Shown here piece by piece: positions 3,357 to 14,708 of a stretch of DNA of 23,048 nucleotides; the stretch's first letter is position 1, and the number at the start of each line of letters is the position of its first letter. Under the pieces are notes generated by a model. The model saw nothing but the letters and a program-made list of their open reading frames with translations, did not search any database and had not been told where the DNA came from. Source of the DNA: a virus; the IMG/VR virus record IMGVR_UViG_3300006919_000486, positions 1-23,048 of that record; one strand, given 5' to 3'. A program made the position numbers and the translations under genes.

Positions 3357-4922
3357 TTATATTGTTGCTTTTCTTCTAATCTTACTTAGTTTATCTTGTT
3401 GTTTAGTCATATCATCAGCTACTACAAAAGCTTTGATAACTCCCATTGTAGTACCTCCAGAACCTTCAGTGCCAGCAAAACTACGGCCTCCTCCAGCTTC
3501 ATTAATAGCACTTAGTATAGGTTTAAACATTCTAGTAGACCTAGAATTTATAACGCTCTCACCTTTAGATAATCTAGCACTAATACTATCACTAGTACCT
3601 GTACCATAACCACCTACTATACCACCTCTAGCAAGTTGTGGTTCTTGAGTACTCATAATATCTGATACTGTTTTAAAACCAGCTGCGGCTGTAGTAGCGG
3701 CTGCAATAAAGTTGAAAGGAGGCGGAGCCGAACCAATAGCGGCTGATATACCTTTATATGTATTCATAGTAGCTTCTACTATTGCTACAGCTTTACCAGC
3801 AGCTGTCTCTTCACCTAGTGCACTTTTAAGAGCGTTCAAACCACCATATATTATAGCTTCCTTTTGAGCGGCTAGTTGTTTTTCTAGCTCTAATTCTTCT
3901 TCTCTTTTCTTTTGTCTAGCTTCAGCTTGTTGTTTCTCATAGTCTTCTCTAGCCTTCTCACTATCCTTACGTATTTTTTCTTGTTCTTTACGTTTAGTTT
4001 CTTTATCCGCTTCTTCTTGTTTTATTCTATCAGCTTCTTCCTTATCGTCTGCATTTTTTTGTGCTTGAAATTCTCTACGTAAAGTCTCCTCAGCCGTCAT
4101 CAATCGTTTTCTAGTCATAAAAGATTGAGTTTGCATATTGATTAGCTCTACCTCTAAAGCAGCTAGCTCGTCTAAATCTTCGGCCATGCTTTCGCTTTGT
4201 TCTATCTCAATTCTTTTAGCGTCTAGCTTTTCTTTTTGTAGTGCAATAGCTTTTTCAGTAGTTTCAATTTCTAATGTATTAGCTCTTTGTAACGCCTCTA
4301 TTCTTTTTTCATAACTAGCCGTTTCATCTTCAGCTAGCATACGTGCCTTAGCTATTTCTTGATTTGTTTTAGCTCTTTCTTTACTAAAATCACGTTCAGC
4401 GTCTCTAACTCTTTGTAATGTTTGAGTTAGTTCTATCATAGCTTTAGTTTCTTTTACTATTTCTTCACCTAAGCCAGATATAGCGTTTTTAGCGTCTTCT
4501 GCAGCCCCTTTAAAATCACCTTGAAACACTTTAACAATAGCACTACCTATTTTGCTTATTCTATCTCTAACAACAGAAATAGCTGCACCAACAGCTTTAA
4601 AAGCTACCTGTAGTTGTTCAGCTCCTTTCTTTGTACTAGTGAAATAAGATAATAATGAACCTATAGCCACTACAAAAGCACCTATACCTGTAGATATTAA
4701 TCCAGCTTTGATAGTAGTGAACATACCTTTAGCAATAGGTATAGCTTTACTAAAGGCTGTTTTAACAGAATTTATACTAACACCCATCACTGAGAATTCA
4801 GCGGCGGCGTCTTTAGCAGCATTACCTGTCTCTACTGTAGTTTTCTTAACCTTCTCTAAGCTCTTATCAGCACTACCTGTACGTGCTTCTACTTCTAGTA
4901 TTATTTTTTCCTTTTCTGCCAT
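3357..4922 (-). CDS. Tail tape measure protein
   Basis: A 521-aa protein with the layout of a tape measure protein. It has an N-terminal coiled region, a hydrophobic Gly/Ala-rich stretch (about residues 60-125, GLISTGIGAFVVAIGSLLSYF), a long charged coiled coil (about 150-350, with many EKxR/KKREEEL repeats), a second hydrophobic Ala/Gly stretch (about 355-425), and the ARGGIVGGYGTGTSD...SKGESVINS segment common near tape measure C-termini. Tape length sets tail length; at the usual ratio of about 0.15 nm per residue this predicts a short tail of roughly 75-80 nm. It lies between a fibre-like gene and the head genes, which is unusual. Confidence 0.9.
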   Translation of the reverse strand: MAEKEKIILEVEARTGSADKSLEKVKKTTVETGNAAKDAAAEFSVMGVSINSVKTAFSKAIPIAKGMFTTIKAGLISTGIGAFVVAIGSLLSYFTSTKKGAEQLQVAFKAVGAAISVVRDRISKIGSAIVKVFQGDFKGAAEDAKNAISGLGEEIVKETKAMIELTQTLQRVRDAERDFSKERAKTNQEIAKARMLAEDETASYEKRIEALQRANTLEIETTEKAIALQKEKLDAKRIEIEQSESMAEDLDELAALEVELINMQTQSFMTRKRLMTAEETLRREFQAQKNADDKEEADRIKQEEADKETKRKEQEKIRKDSEKAREDYEKQQAEARQKKREEELELEKQLAAQKEAIIYGGLNALKSALGEETAAGKAVAIVEATMNTYKGISAAIGSAPPPFNFIAAATTAAAGFKTVSDIMSTQEPQLARGGIVGGYGTGTSDSISARLSKGESVINSRSTRMFKPILSAINEAGGGRSFAGTEGSGGTTMGVIKAFVVADDMTKQQDKLSKIRRKATI

Positions 4923-9322: not shown

Positions 9323-9841
9323 TTATATTTCTTTTGTTACTGTTCTTATAAACTCTTGAGCGTCTAAAACGTAAGCTCTAGCAAATTCTCTAGGTAATCC
9401 TTTAAGTCCTTGATTGACTGCGTCTGAAAAAAAGTTTGTAGGCTTAATACCATATAGTTTAATACTTCTAGCCATTAAGAATACTAGGCTTTTTCTAGGT
9501 ATAAAACGTCCTCTTTCATCTCTAGCCGACTTAATACCCTTTCTTACAACCCACTTGTCAATAACTCCTGAGGGTGGCTGTTTTGTTCTATACGAAAAAG
9601 GGCTTTTGGGAGCTTTTGCCGAGCTTTTGCTACCTTTTATACCCTCATCTACTATACGTGTATAAGGAGCTCCTAAAAAGCGTAAATCGAGCTTGCCATC
9701 TTTAACGTCTAAATGATAACCTAAGCTGTCACTTAAATTGCCACTAGTGTTTTTACCTAAGGCGTTTAAAATACCTCTAGCCGTTTCTACTGTCTTTTGG
9801 CCAAAAATATCAAATACTCTTTTTACGTGTTTTGTCTTCAC
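9323..9841 (-). CDS. Tail completion / neck protein, HK97 gp10-like
   Basis: A 172-aa basic protein. The segment LRFLGAPYTRIVDEGIKGSK (residues 53-72), followed by KAPKSPFSYRTKQPPSGVIDKWV and KGIKSARDERGRFIPRK, resembles HK97 gp10-type neck or tail-completion proteins, which have a 'Y-A-x-x-V-D-E-G' motif and a Pro-rich loop. The start is GTG at 9841, sharing its first base with the TAG stop of the preceding gene (TAGTG), so translation is coupled. Family placement is by motif pattern and genome context. Confidence 0.65.
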   Translation of the reverse strand: MKTKHVKRVFDIFGQKTVETARGILNALGKNTSGNLSDSLGYHLDVKDGKLDLRFLGAPYTRIVDEGIKGSKSSAKAPKSPFSYRTKQPPSGVIDKWVVRKGIKSARDERGRFIPRKSLVFLMARSIKLYGIKPTNFFSDAVNQGLKGLPREFARAYVLDAQEFIRTVTKEI

Positions 9842-10380: not shown

Positions 10381-10863
10381 TTAAACGTTTCCAGAACATG
10401 CTGAGGCCTCAAACATTACCTCTAGTGATATATCAGCCGTCCAGCCTGTTACTTCGTTGTCGAACCTTTCCGTAAACGGCTCACAAGTTATATTGTCCTG
10501 TATTCTTATATTGTTTCTAAAATCTGTAAATTCTCTTAGTAGCGTATTTGTATTTCTTAGGTAGCTGATAATATCTCCAATTGTTTGTAGGGTATCACCT
10601 AGTACATAATCTTCATTACTTTCATCTTTATTGACTAAATCCATCACTATTATTTGAAAGTTGTATGTAAGATTGTTTGTGTCATACACAGCATTATTAG
10701 TAGCCACGTGCATAAGAGGGTAAGTTGTCTCTACTAGGTCTACTTCAAATATATCACCTATTGTTATGGTATTTACTTGTACAGTATTGCCTATTTCTCT
10801 AAATAGCTCATATATAGCACCTAGTGTTATATTTTTTACTTCGTATCCGTTTCTCTTTAGCAT
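10381..10863 (-). CDS. Neck or tail-completion structural protein
   Basis: A 160-aa protein. The part LMHVATNNAVYDTNNLTYNF (about residues 50-69), with IIVMDLVNKDESNEDYVLGD following, resembles proteins found between terminase and tail genes in Bacteroidota phages, and a tail-terminator or head-tail connector role is plausible. Its ATG overlaps the stop of the -1 frame extension of the preceding gene (TAATG), so it is likely translated with it. It has no membrane segment. The call is from context and recalled pattern only. Confidence 0.5.
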   Translation of the reverse strand: MLKRNGYEVKNITLGAIYELFREIGNTVQVNTITIGDIFEVDLVETTYPLMHVATNNAVYDTNNLTYNFQIIVMDLVNKDESNEDYVLGDTLQTIGDIISYLRNTNTLLREFTDFRNNIRIQDNITCEPFTERFDNEVTGWTADISLEVMFEASACSGNV

Positions 10864-11108
10864 TATTTTGTATTTTGTATTCGGCCTAAATCTGTTGTGT
10901 AAGCCATAAAGTTAAAACATTCATTTACTGTTAAATTTAGCACTTGGTCAAACTTTAGTATATCACCATTAGCTAAGCTATATATCACTCCGTACCAGCC
11001 GTATTTCTCCGTAACGAGCTCTTCATCACTCTTGACGCCTCTCTCCTCTGTCTTCTGTTTAGTTTTGAATATACTTGCGTAATCTTCATATAATCTATTG
11101 CGATAGCT
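10863..11108 (-). CDS. -1 frame extension of the tail chaperone-like gene
   Basis: This frame has no start of its own but is open for 81 codons, from the base after the slippery heptamer at 11114-11108 to a TAA at 10865-10863. It reads SYRNRLYEDYASIFKTKQKT..., continues through ELVTEKYGWYGVIYSLANGD and ends TTDLGRIQNTK. It overlaps the zero-frame gene by 124 nt and then covers the otherwise empty space up to the next ATG, with which its stop overlaps as TAATG. A -1 shift at codon 175 would give a 256-aa fusion, the G-GT arrangement of tail assembly chaperones. The frame has ordinary amino-acid composition downstream of the zero-frame stop. Confidence 0.65.
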   Translation of the reverse strand, partial: SYRNRLYEDYASIFKTKQKTEERGVKSDEELVTEKYGWYGVIYSLANGDILKFDQVLNLTVNECFNFMAYTTDLGRIQNTK

Positions 11109-11632
11109 AAAAAAAAACTAGCGGCTGCGTTTACTAAATCTACGCTTAACTCTTTTTTGAATAGCTCAGCTCTTTTGGAGGCTGTTACATAATCATATTC
11201 CTCTAGCTGGTATTTTTCACCTCTACGGCTCTCAATAGGTCTGTAAAGAATAGCCATTATATAGTGCATATTTTCCCATGCAAATTCTAGCTTGTTATCT
11301 AGGTCTACAAATTCCTTTAACTTCAATTCATGTAGATTAGGATGAAAACCATAGTCTACGCCATCTATTTCAAATTCAAGCACTAGATTGTCACTACTTT
11401 CAGTTAGCATAAGTTCTTTTAGGGCGTCTATAGATTTGTTTAAAACATTCTTAGTAGCTTCGCCTAATACGTCTTGTGGAGCTCCTGTTAATGTACTAAG
11501 TAAATGTAACTCTTGTTCACTCTCACTAACTTTATCGTTGTGAGTATTCATAAAGTCCATGTATCTACCTAGAGGCACTTCGCTCCAATTAGCTGGTATA
11601 TAATACCTGTTTTCGTTAATAACTAAATTCAT
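10985..11632 (-). CDS. Tail assembly chaperone-like protein (zero-frame product)
   Basis: A 215-aa, largely helical protein beginning MNLVINENRYYIPANWSEVP. Residues 36-75 (SESEQELHLLSTLTGAPQDV, then KSIDALKELM) resemble tail assembly chaperones of the gpE/gp41 type, which carry an 'L-x-x-L-T-G-x-x-x-x-x-L' segment. The C-terminus is very basic (LNRRQRREASRVMKSSLRRN). A nine-T run near codons 172-175 contains the T TTT TTA slippery heptamer in the correct phase, and an open -1 frame follows. Chaperones of this kind are made as a short and a frameshifted long form that bind the tape measure protein. It lies right after the terminase, far from the tape measure gene. Confidence 0.65.
   Translation of the reverse strand: MNLVINENRYYIPANWSEVPLGRYMDFMNTHNDKVSESEQELHLLSTLTGAPQDVLGEATKNVLNKSIDALKELMLTESSDNLVLEFEIDGVDYGFHPNLHELKLKEFVDLDNKLEFAWENMHYIMAILYRPIESRRGEKYQLEEYDYVTASKRAELFKKELSVDLVNAAASFFLAIAIDYMKITQVYSKLNRRQRREASRVMKSSLRRNTAGTE
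11108..11114 (-). promoter_or_regulatory. Candidate -1 ribosomal frameshift site T TTT TTA
   Basis: On the minus strand codons 172-175 of the chaperone-like gene read AGT TTT TTT TTA. The last seven bases fit X XXY YYZ in zero-frame phase and equal the well-known HIV-1-type heptamer U UUU UUA. One base later a short CTAT/ATAG hairpin could form, which is a weak stimulator at best. The -1 frame is open for 81 codons after the site. Confidence 0.65.
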
Positions 11633-11727: not shown

Positions 11728-13035
11728 TTAGTGCACATAGTATTGCCCTGTACTTTTTAACTCATATATCATCCTCATCATTATAGCGTCAGCATAATCT
11801 GGAGACCTCCCCAAAGCCGTTTTAACGTCTTCTTTCGATATTATTTGCAATTTTGTATCTTTGTCATAGTTCTTACGTCTAACTTGCTCCAGCTCCTCCA
11901 AAATAGCGTTTTTTAGGCCTATTTGCTCAGCACGTATATATATCTGGAGTTTGTTTATATGGTCAGCTAGCGTATAGTAACATTGTGTTTTTAAGTTCAC
12001 ATAGTTCTCACCTCTTATGGCTTTACTATTATTTACAAAGCCACGACAACGTAAAATATCCTTAACGCCTCCGCCAATACCATCTTCATCTACTACAATA
12101 TGGTTTAAAGGTACGCTATATCTCCTTTGTAGCTCTGATATTTTTTCAGCCGCTTCAGTTACGCTATTAGTGTTCATGGTTATAAATTGTTCAGCCCTTA
12201 AACCGCTCCAATATACTATTACTGTTTTATCCTTACCATATCTAGCTATATCCGCTGTTATATAAGAATTACCTGTTTGTACTGAGGTATTACTGAAGGT
12301 ATTTAGTATAGCGTCATAGTTTATCAATTTATCGTCGCTATCATCATACTCCCAATTACCAAATAGTAAACGCTGTTTGCTTATATAATCTAGTTTATTG
12401 AGCTGTTCTCTATAGTGCTTACTAACGTGTCTATTATCGGTTACTAATGATTGTATAAACTTCCGATATTTAGGTAGTGTATTTTCTTTGTAAGGTTTGT
12501 AGAAGCTACTATATACCCATTCCTTACTAGGGTTACATGTAAGTAGTATTTTTGGTATTAATCCATTTTCATCTAGCTTATACCTTATCCTTGAAGCTAC
12601 TATCTGTTTAGCCTTCTCAGTTATTTGTGAGCACTCATCTATAAAAGCCGCTGTAAGCTCTAAAGAACCTAAGCTATCAAAGTTTCTATCTGAAGGGTAT
12701 TGAAATAAGTCTTTTAATATAACTTCAGAGCCATTAAAAAAGGTTATTACGTTAGTACTAGCGTTATACTTGTAATGTACGTTAGCTTCTATATTCCACG
12801 CCTTACAAACTTCAAAAAAGGTGTTTAAAGTAGTCTTTTTAAGCGTATCAAGTTTACTACGGCCTATTAAACAGCGTACGCCATCATATTCAGTGCATAA
12901 CCATATAATATAACAGCAACCTAGATAGCTTTTGCCACCTCCAGCCGCTCCGCCGTAAAGTACCTCAGTAGTTGTACTATCTGTAAGGTATCTTAGTGCT
13001 TCGCCTTGTTTACTCGTTAGGCTCGCTATCTTCAT
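11728..13035 (-). CDS. terL: Terminase large subunit
   Basis: A 435-aa packaging motor protein. The N-terminal ATPase has Walker A GGAAGGGKS (residues 28-36, Lys35), Walker B AAFIDE (Asp133, Glu134) and motif III LLTCNPS (164-170). The C-terminal RNase H-like nuclease shows ADIARYGKDKT (Asp262), VVDEDGIGGG (Asp316/Asp318) and SPDYADA (Asp413, Asp416), the expected acidic residues for cutting concatemeric DNA. The length is normal to slightly short for the family. It overlaps the small subunit gene by 26 nt, so the two are coupled. ATP-driven packaging into the prohead follows from the family. Confidence 0.95.
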   Translation of the reverse strand: MKIASLTSKQGEALRYLTDSTTTEVLYGGAAGGGKSYLGCCYIIWLCTEYDGVRCLIGRSKLDTLKKTTLNTFFEVCKAWNIEANVHYKYNASTNVITFFNGSEVILKDLFQYPSDRNFDSLGSLELTAAFIDECSQITEKAKQIVASRIRYKLDENGLIPKILLTCNPSKEWVYSSFYKPYKENTLPKYRKFIQSLVTDNRHVSKHYREQLNKLDYISKQRLLFGNWEYDDSDDKLINYDAILNTFSNTSVQTGNSYITADIARYGKDKTVIVYWSGLRAEQFITMNTNSVTEAAEKISELQRRYSVPLNHIVVDEDGIGGGVKDILRCRGFVNNSKAIRGENYVNLKTQCYYTLADHINKLQIYIRAEQIGLKNAILEELEQVRRKNYDKDTKLQIISKEDVKTALGRSPDYADAIMMRMIYELKSTGQYYVH

Positions 13036-13368: not shown

Positions 13369-14121
13369 TTATTTTTTATCCTTAAAACTAGCCAAAGGAT
13401 AGAATACTAAGCTGTTTCTATAGCCTTTAGGCTTAGTAGGTGTTATAGGTGTAACTCCATGTACATTACGCCATGCTGGATAAACTACCATGCTATTATC
13501 TATACCGTCCATAGTAGCATTATAATCTGGTACGTGAAGGTCTCCACCTTGTACGTCTTGCTTCTTATTTATTATCACATTTACACAGCCTTTGATATTT
13601 GCTGTATCTCTATGAAAAGGAGCTGATATATTATAGTTATTAATACTACTAGTGAATAGCTTGCCAAAACGATATTTTTCTGGTACATTCTCTTCTATTA
13701 GCTTGAGCTGTGTTTCGTATTGTTCTGGTATTATCTCACGTATAACATTCTCAGCCTCTCTACATGCTGCTAACATGGCTTTAATGAAAGTTCTAGCACT
13801 CTTAGTATTATGCACACTTGATATACTAGGGTATGGTCTTCTTAAATGTGGTTTAGGAGGTACAGAACCAATAATAGTGCTGTATTGTTCTACTCCTGAA
13901 GCTCTTACCATAGTGCTCTTAGGTACTCTATCACTTCTGAATTCATTATTAGCTATCTCAATAAATTGTCTTAGCTTACCTTCTATTGATTTGATGAAAA
14001 ACCCTATAGGCTTGCCTTCAAATGTAAATATGGTATCCTCTAATATATTAGGCTCCTTATATTCACAGTTATCACCTACTTGTACGTTATGTTCTACTTG
14101 TACTAACTCTACTGATTTCAT
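13369..14121 (-). CDS. 2-oxoglutarate/Fe(II) dioxygenase, resembling the TET/JBP family
   Basis: A 250-aa protein whose C-terminal half has the dioxygenase core: FHRDTANIKGCVNVII (169-184) with His170 and Asp172, GGDLHVPDY (192-200), YPAWRNVHGVTPI (214-226) with His221, and GYRNSLVFYPL (233-243) with Arg235. HxD...H would bind Fe(II) and Arg the 2-oxoglutarate. The GG-D/N-L-x-V-P-x-Y strand and spacing are those I associate with TET/JBP-like enzymes that oxidise 5-methylpyrimidines in DNA. The N-terminal 150 residues (with RRPYPSISSVHNTKSARTF) look specific to the phage subgroup. ATGA overlap with the ParB-like gene and 5 nt to terS suggest action on DNA before packaging. No C5-methyltransferase is visible here, and the substrate is unknown; a protein hydroxylase is an alternative. 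Confidence 0.7.
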   Translation of the reverse strand: MKSVELVQVEHNVQVGDNCEYKEPNILEDTIFTFEGKPIGFFIKSIEGKLRQFIEIANNEFRSDRVPKSTMVRASGVEQYSTIIGSVPPKPHLRRPYPSISSVHNTKSARTFIKAMLAACREAENVIREIIPEQYETQLKLIEENVPEKYRFGKLFTSSINNYNISAPFHRDTANIKGCVNVIINKKQDVQGGDLHVPDYNATMDGIDNSMVVYPAWRNVHGVTPITPTKPKGYRNSLVFYPLASFKDKK

Positions 14122-14708
14122 AGTCCAGCGTTTTTACGTTCTTCCTTTAAAAATTCTATTATCATAGCCCCTACATAGGCTCCTTCATTTACCCAAAAGT
14201 TATATAACTCTTTAGCCTCTTCATAGTGTTCAGCTTCAAAAGGTATCTGTAAGGCTCTTCTTACGTCTCCTTCCATATTATCTAACTCCTGTTCAAAGTC
14301 TTCTTCATCTAATAATGAATAGTCAATATCTTCCTTAAACATATCTGCTGGTAAATCCATAGCCCATTCATCTAGCTCTTCAAAGTTATACTCATTACCT
14401 AGTATATCCCAATCCCATTCACCATAGCTTACATTATCTTTAATAACAAAGCTTTTTTTTTGCTCATCTGTAAGCTCACTAGCTACTATGATAGGCACTT
14501 CCTTTAGACCAGCTTCTATACAGGCCTTATATCTCATGTTACCGCCTAATATAGTGTAATCTTCGTCTACTACTATAGGTCTTAAATGTAACATGCTAGG
14601 TAGGTCTTGAATTGAGGCTACTAGCTTCTTAAATTTAATATTCTTGATTATTCTAGGGTTATTAGCATTAGGTCTAACCTTACTAATAGGTACTATCTGT
14701 GTTTCCAT
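14118..14708 (-). CDS. ParB-like nuclease domain protein
   Basis: A 196-aa protein starting with the ParB/sulfiredoxin fold: VPISKVRPNANNPRIIKN (residues 6-23), LRPIVVDEDYTILGGNMRYK (42-61, with the GGNMRYKA nucleotide-binding-type motif) and EVPIIVASELTDEQKKSFVI (70-89). KDNVSYGEWDWDILGNEY follows, as in many phage ParB-domain proteins. The acidic C-terminal part is less characteristic. Such genes often stand just before terminase genes and beside DNA-modifying enzymes. Its activity in this phage is unknown; DNA binding, nicking or CTP binding are possibilities known for the superfamily. Confidence 0.85.
   Translation of the reverse strand: METQIVPISKVRPNANNPRIIKNIKFKKLVASIQDLPSMLHLRPIVVDEDYTILGGNMRYKACIEAGLKEVPIIVASELTDEQKKSFVIKDNVSYGEWDWDILGNEYNFEELDEWAMDLPADMFKEDIDYSLLDEEDFEQELDNMEGDVRRALQIPFEAEHYEEAKELYNFWVNEGAYVGAMIIEFLKEERKNAGL

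Follow-up and report, generated by a model that had tools for sequence, protein, structure and literature searches.

Does the gene that follows the terminase on the minus strand of this phage DNA encode one protein or two and, if two, which machine changes the reading frame? The window, the whole of a 23,048-base IMG/VR record, holds there an ORF with a run of nine T's near its 3' end, behind which the -1 frame lies open. Tail-chaperone frameshifting has been treated as ribosomal and sought with heptamer models, and the earlier note on this DNA had likewise proposed a -1 shift at the heptamer T TTT TTA in a gene resembling those for tail assembly chaperones. The answer reached here is that RNA polymerase probably slips at the T9/T10 run and makes a two-product gene, most likely a tail-chaperone pair of the G/GT kind, in a tailed phage.

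Two open frames behind the terminase gene

The positions and lengths that the earlier note gave are all right when the minus strand is re-read, and both predicted products, 215 aa in the zero frame and a 256-aa fusion through the -1 frame, are re-derived from the frames (Table 1). In the mRNA sense the run lies within the codons AGT TTT TTT TTA, and from 11108 onward the -1 frame stays open up to a TAA (10865-10863) that shares one base with the next gene's ATG (10863-10861). In the +1 frame a stop comes right after the run.

The placement claimed earlier, after the terminase and about 6 kb before the tape measure, agrees with the neighboring genes: TerL (E 1.3e-14) adjoins, and in transcription order another 5.9 kb separate the gene from the tape-measure-like one, beyond which lie capsid and major-tail candidates assigned by eye. 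Between 298 and 4922 in the window the tape-measure-like gene is followed by a protease (XkdF-like, Pfam PF14550), a scaffold-like gene and candidate capsid/tail proteins, a transcription order that puts the tail module before the head module. The conserved neighbor at 9323-9841 is presumably HK97 gp10-like, as judged by eye only.

Table 1. Features of the two-frame locus and its surroundings in the window
Feature	Position	Strand	Basis or remark
Zero-frame ORF, short form of 215 aa	10985..11632	-	upstream ~174 residues common to the long form
T9 run (U9 in the mRNA), putative slip site	11109..11117	-	T9/T10 in 287/287 loci
T TTT TTA heptamer, run plus next base	11108..11114	-	sequence
-1-frame extension, 81 codons, C-terminal domain of the predicted 256-aa form, motif KYGWYGVIYSLANGDI	10866..11108	-	alignment and AlphaFold2
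TAATG, -1-frame stop overlapping the next start codon	10861..10865	-	sequence
TAG, stop of the third (+1) frame after the run	11107..11109	-	sequence
Next gene, 160 aa	10381..10863	-	syntenic in 121 related loci
Conserved neighbor, 172 aa	9323..9841	-	phrog_29822, E 2e-28; 109 related loci
Terminase large subunit, immediately upstream	11728..13035	-	Pfam Terminase_3
Tape-measure-like gene	3357..4922	-	PHROG tape measure, phrog_3336, E 9.5e-17

The -1 part has the core motif KWGWY..I..LA.GDI, with F14, K35, G37, W38, Y39 and L45 near-invariant in an alignment of 70 diverse members. The zero-frame and -1 parts were modelled with AlphaFold2 separately, not as the fusion; the -1 model is all helical with a mean pLDDT of 82, and the zero-frame domain has a mean pLDDT of 90. 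Its alignment marks the -1 part as a genuine, conserved protein domain.

Conservation of the frame relation and of the T run

The first scan returns the identical protein and homologues of 63% and 42% identity, all with T9 and the -1 relation and with a heptamer ending in A or G. This set was widened by profile scans of IMG/VR, bacterial genomes and cultured phages, and most loci were retrieved with zero-frame patterns placed far ahead of the run, so that these scans did not select for it. The downstream domain stands in the -1 frame in all 287 distinct loci that hold both parts, and the overlap carries T9 (239 loci) or T10 (48 loci), never a shorter or longer run. Among these 287 homologous loci a lost run, a -1 frame broken by stops, an in-frame fusion or separate genes were sought, and no exception turned up; seven further loci without the -1 domain are all cut by a contig end. 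Elsewhere in the coding DNA of these contigs (387 kb) a run of at least nine T's is observed once compared with 5.6 expected, and runs of at least nine A's are observed 11 times compared with 31.5 expected, so that a T9 or T10 kept in every one of the 287 loci is not attributable to chance. Since the -1 relation and the T9/T10 run are universal, no fusion occurs among these loci and the -1 part is a conserved domain, the comparison of sequences indicates that the programmed -1 frame change claimed earlier, yielding a long and a short product, is real.

Two simpler explanations of the overlapping frames were weighed against this set. The Nonlabens phages P12024S and P12024L carry annotations of two hypothetical proteins here, as would suit a -1 ORF that is a separate gene using its own start codon, but such a gene is very improbable given that in 264 of the 287 loci the -1 frame is free of ATG up to the conserved motif. 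In 175 loci an own start is excluded because no ATG, GTG or TTG precedes the motif there (a fixed distance was used in the start-codon count for 51 loci lacking a pattern match to the motif), and the window has no start-bearing -1 ORF of at least 60 aa. Homopolymers are error-prone and their length can vary between genomes, as a sequencing error, gene decay or a phase-variable broken gene would have it; such an origin is scarcely credible for 287 distinct sequences from independent assemblies that are all -1, cultured phages and two bacterial isolate genomes among them, with conserved proteins coded in both frames and no in-frame version in the set.

The cultured members of the family, the Nonlabens (Persicivirga) phages P12024S and P12024L (NC_018271 and NC_018272), were found with the zero-frame protein of a relative; tblastn searches of cultured phages with the window protein or the -1 domain as query gave nothing useful. 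Their genes gp38/gp39 likewise follow the terminase and have T9 with a -1 relation, and differ from the window gene in being annotated as two unconnected hypothetical proteins and in having T9 in a different codon phase. Six loci matching the zero-frame profile include relatives in contigs of Galbibacter pacificus, Flagellimonas onchidii and a Winogradskyella MAG, and the scan of bacterial genome contigs with the -1 domain gave no match. The hosts of the named relatives are Flavobacteriaceae. A contig binned as an Epsilonproteobacteria MAG also holds a family member, probably through binning contamination or from an unusual host.

Four BFVD proteins of 241-267 aa (A0A516L611, A0A516L5A8, A0A6J5N0W0 and A0A6J5SVK3) each align in Foldseek with the zero-frame domain as well as with the -1 domain, suggesting in-frame fusions or records with homopolymer errors. 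Flavobacterium phage 6H has a weak profile match (10927-10352, E 1.5e-4), left out of the count, with an unannotated -1-frame ORF in the ~305 nt that follow on the minus strand and without a long homopolymer or clear shift site; it is possibly an exception or a case of a different shift.

Run length, codon phase and the slipping machine

The position of the run relative to the codons varies among the 287 loci (phase 1 in 210, phase 2 in 43 and phase 0 in 34), and on a tree of 84 members the state of phase and length changes at least 13 times while nine to ten T's stay. Codon choice in 168 representatives follows the run: its first codon always ends in T though the amino acid varies, being AGT, AAT, GGT, GCT, GAT or ACT (S, N, G, A, D, T) in phase 2, where the expected share of T-ending codons averages 0.49, and GTT, CTT or ATT (V, L, I) in phase 1, where it is 0.26, and Phe codons inside the run are always TTT, compared with a TTT share of 0.72 for the gene's other Phe codons. 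Relatedness among the sequences is left out of account in these shares, to which a constraint on the amino acids may contribute. A phase-1 T9 is followed by no residue other than Tyr, Trp, Cys or Ser, whose codons there all begin with T. Within every T9/T10 run U UUU UUU can be read in frame. As these alignments show, what is kept is an unbroken stretch of nine or more T's, whatever its codon phase, not a heptamer. The T TTT TTA singled out by the earlier note is present, and the window clade has T TTT TTR, but most phase-0 and phase-1 relatives have no T TTT TTR available. No signal of RNA structure occurs near the run in 87 representatives (mean z of 0.04 downstream and -0.02 upstream), and on these flat z-scores a stimulatory RNA structure or nascent-RNA hairpin was rejected. 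An internal control is provided by the in-frame A9 at 14453-14461 in the ParB-like gene (14118-14708, minus strand), which is not kept in relatives and is probably incidental, although it might be a slipping site.

A nine-base homopolymer is also found in a second family. Gene 38 of Flavobacterium phage 11b (NC_006356, 17864-18525) ends in A9 and is followed by a -1 ORF that extends up to a tape-measure-like gene, and among forty IMG/VR relatives fetched exactly A9 with the -1 relation is present in 26 of 26 distinct 11b-family sequences. In 17 of 20 members the -1 part has a match to phrog_441 'tail assembly chaperone', and on this profile evidence and its position the 11b gene 38/39 pair is a tail-chaperone pair in the classical place. 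It resembles the window gene in the nine-base homopolymer, the -1 shift and the two-part gene, and differs in having A9 in place of T9/T10 and in lying just before the tape-measure-like gene; profile comparison of the two families gives no significant homology. Phase is uninformative for the 11b family because it has a single one (KKK). Runs of A followed by a +1-frame ORF end chaperone-like genes before the tape measure in Cellulophaga phages phi10:1 (A8, 3362) and phi18:1 (A9, 2984) and in Croceibacter phage P2559S (A8, 14747), each a single case.

At nine A's or T's slippage by bacterial RNA polymerase is efficient in vivo, and the enzyme's RNA:DNA hybrid spans 9-10 bp (PMC5009743); A/T runs often show signs of being selected against once they reach nine (PMC1088944). 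The site in the window shares these properties. In the proposed mechanism RNA polymerase would slip at T9 (template A9) in a fraction of its passages, which is possible because the whole 9-10-bp hybrid is then U:A and could re-pair after moving back by one base. With one U added (U10), the 81-codon -1 domain would come into frame and the 256-aa long form would result, the unslipped mRNA would give the 215-aa short form, and an mRNA lacking one U would run into an immediate stop. Apart from their C-terminal parts the two forms would be alike, and they would be made at a fixed ratio, like lambda gpG/gpGT. Runs of about nine A's or T's are likewise known from Shigella mxiE and spa13 and Thermus dnaX (PMC1088944, PMC5009743), and in mxiE one inserted U joins two overlapping ORFs into an extended product (PMC1088944). 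Those genes are bacterial, whereas the one in the window presumably serves phage morphogenesis and is kept across hundreds of phage contigs.

The length of nine to ten that is kept while the phase varies, the missing structure, the avoidance of such runs elsewhere and the A9 of the 11b family favor transcriptional slippage and suggest the polymerase rather than the ribosome as the slipping machine; the missing RNA structure fits, since slippage needs none. Ribosomal -1 frameshifting, with two tRNA-Phe or a tRNA-Phe/tRNA-Leu pair slipping on U UUU UUA/G or U UUU UUU, is rather unlikely. A slipping ribosome would find the T TTT TTR heptamer in the window clade, with U UUU UUU at hand in all members, and the literature describes the known cases in tail chaperones as ribosomal (review PMC5009743), but six or seven T's would be enough for it, yet none of the 287 loci has fewer than nine, whatever the phase. 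Also at odds with a slipping ribosome are the flat structure signal, the nine-base homopolymer in the unrelated 11b family and the +1 frame at A8/A9 in the three cultured Bacteroidota phages, a direction that -1 ribosomal slippage cannot give and that polymerase slippage can through loss of a base from the transcript. Ribosomal and polymerase slippage may also add up at one site.

Probable role of the two predicted products and meaning for the phage group

The zero-frame part matches phrog_32199 in 70 of 70 members, and there are weak matches to phrog_166 'tail protein' (10 of 70 members, best E 3e-4) and to Pfam Phage_TAC_7 (PF10109; one of 70, E 0.0019), both of which match in the same two of 14 control genomes. 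No solved structure in the PDB is matched by the zero-frame domain, either by profile or by fold. The viral Foldseek matches in BFVD are uncharacterized proteins, including that of P12024S, with a weak match at rank 44 (E 0.011) to a protein annotated as tail assembly chaperone. The head-tail genes of the window contain no other G/GT-like or two-frame pair.

The G/GT tail assembly chaperones of lambda-type phages (Xu, Hendrix and Duda 2004, 2013 and 2014; reviewed in PMC5009743) share with the window gene an N-terminal part common to two products and a C-terminal domain gained through a -1 shift late in the first ORF, the long form presumably being the rarer one in both. They differ in that the window family has a 9-10-base T run in any phase, with no constraint to a 6-7-base heptamer, and in gene order, as the window gene follows the terminase and does not occupy the classical place between the major tail protein and the tape measure; the comparisons by profile and fold showed no significant homology. 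The tail-chaperone role put forward in the earlier note is therefore plausible by its G/GT logic and the phrog_166 and Phage_TAC_7 matches, but sits in a gene order unlike that of lambda-type phages. A two-product gene with another morphogenetic role, as a neck protein, head-tail connector or packaging accessory, is possible if doubtful: the location directly after the terminase and before neck-like genes, kept in 109-121 loci, the distant tape measure and the missing structural match to solved chaperones point toward it, and the G/GT logic, the weak profile and Foldseek chaperone matches and the lack of any other such pair among the head-tail genes point away. From this sequence evidence the product is likely a tail assembly chaperone of the G/GT kind.

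A search of the open-access literature, with subscription papers outside its scope, gave no earlier report of transcriptional slippage in tail assembly or in phages of Flavobacteria, or of tail-chaperone frameshifts in Bacteroidetes. With at least two unrelated families (T9/T10 here and A9 in 11b) and some +1 cases (phi10:1, phi18:1 and P2559S), the balance tips slightly toward the view that Bacteroidota tailed phages generally set the chaperone ratio by polymerase slippage at 8-10-base A/T runs, not by ribosomal frameshifting. If polymerase slippage does operate throughout this phage group, heptamer-based tools would miss or misread such sites and hundreds of phage genes would be split or truncated in annotation. 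The -1-frame domain, unannotated in these genomes, would gain an identity, and whether ribosome or polymerase is the source of the product ratio would become testable in one system.
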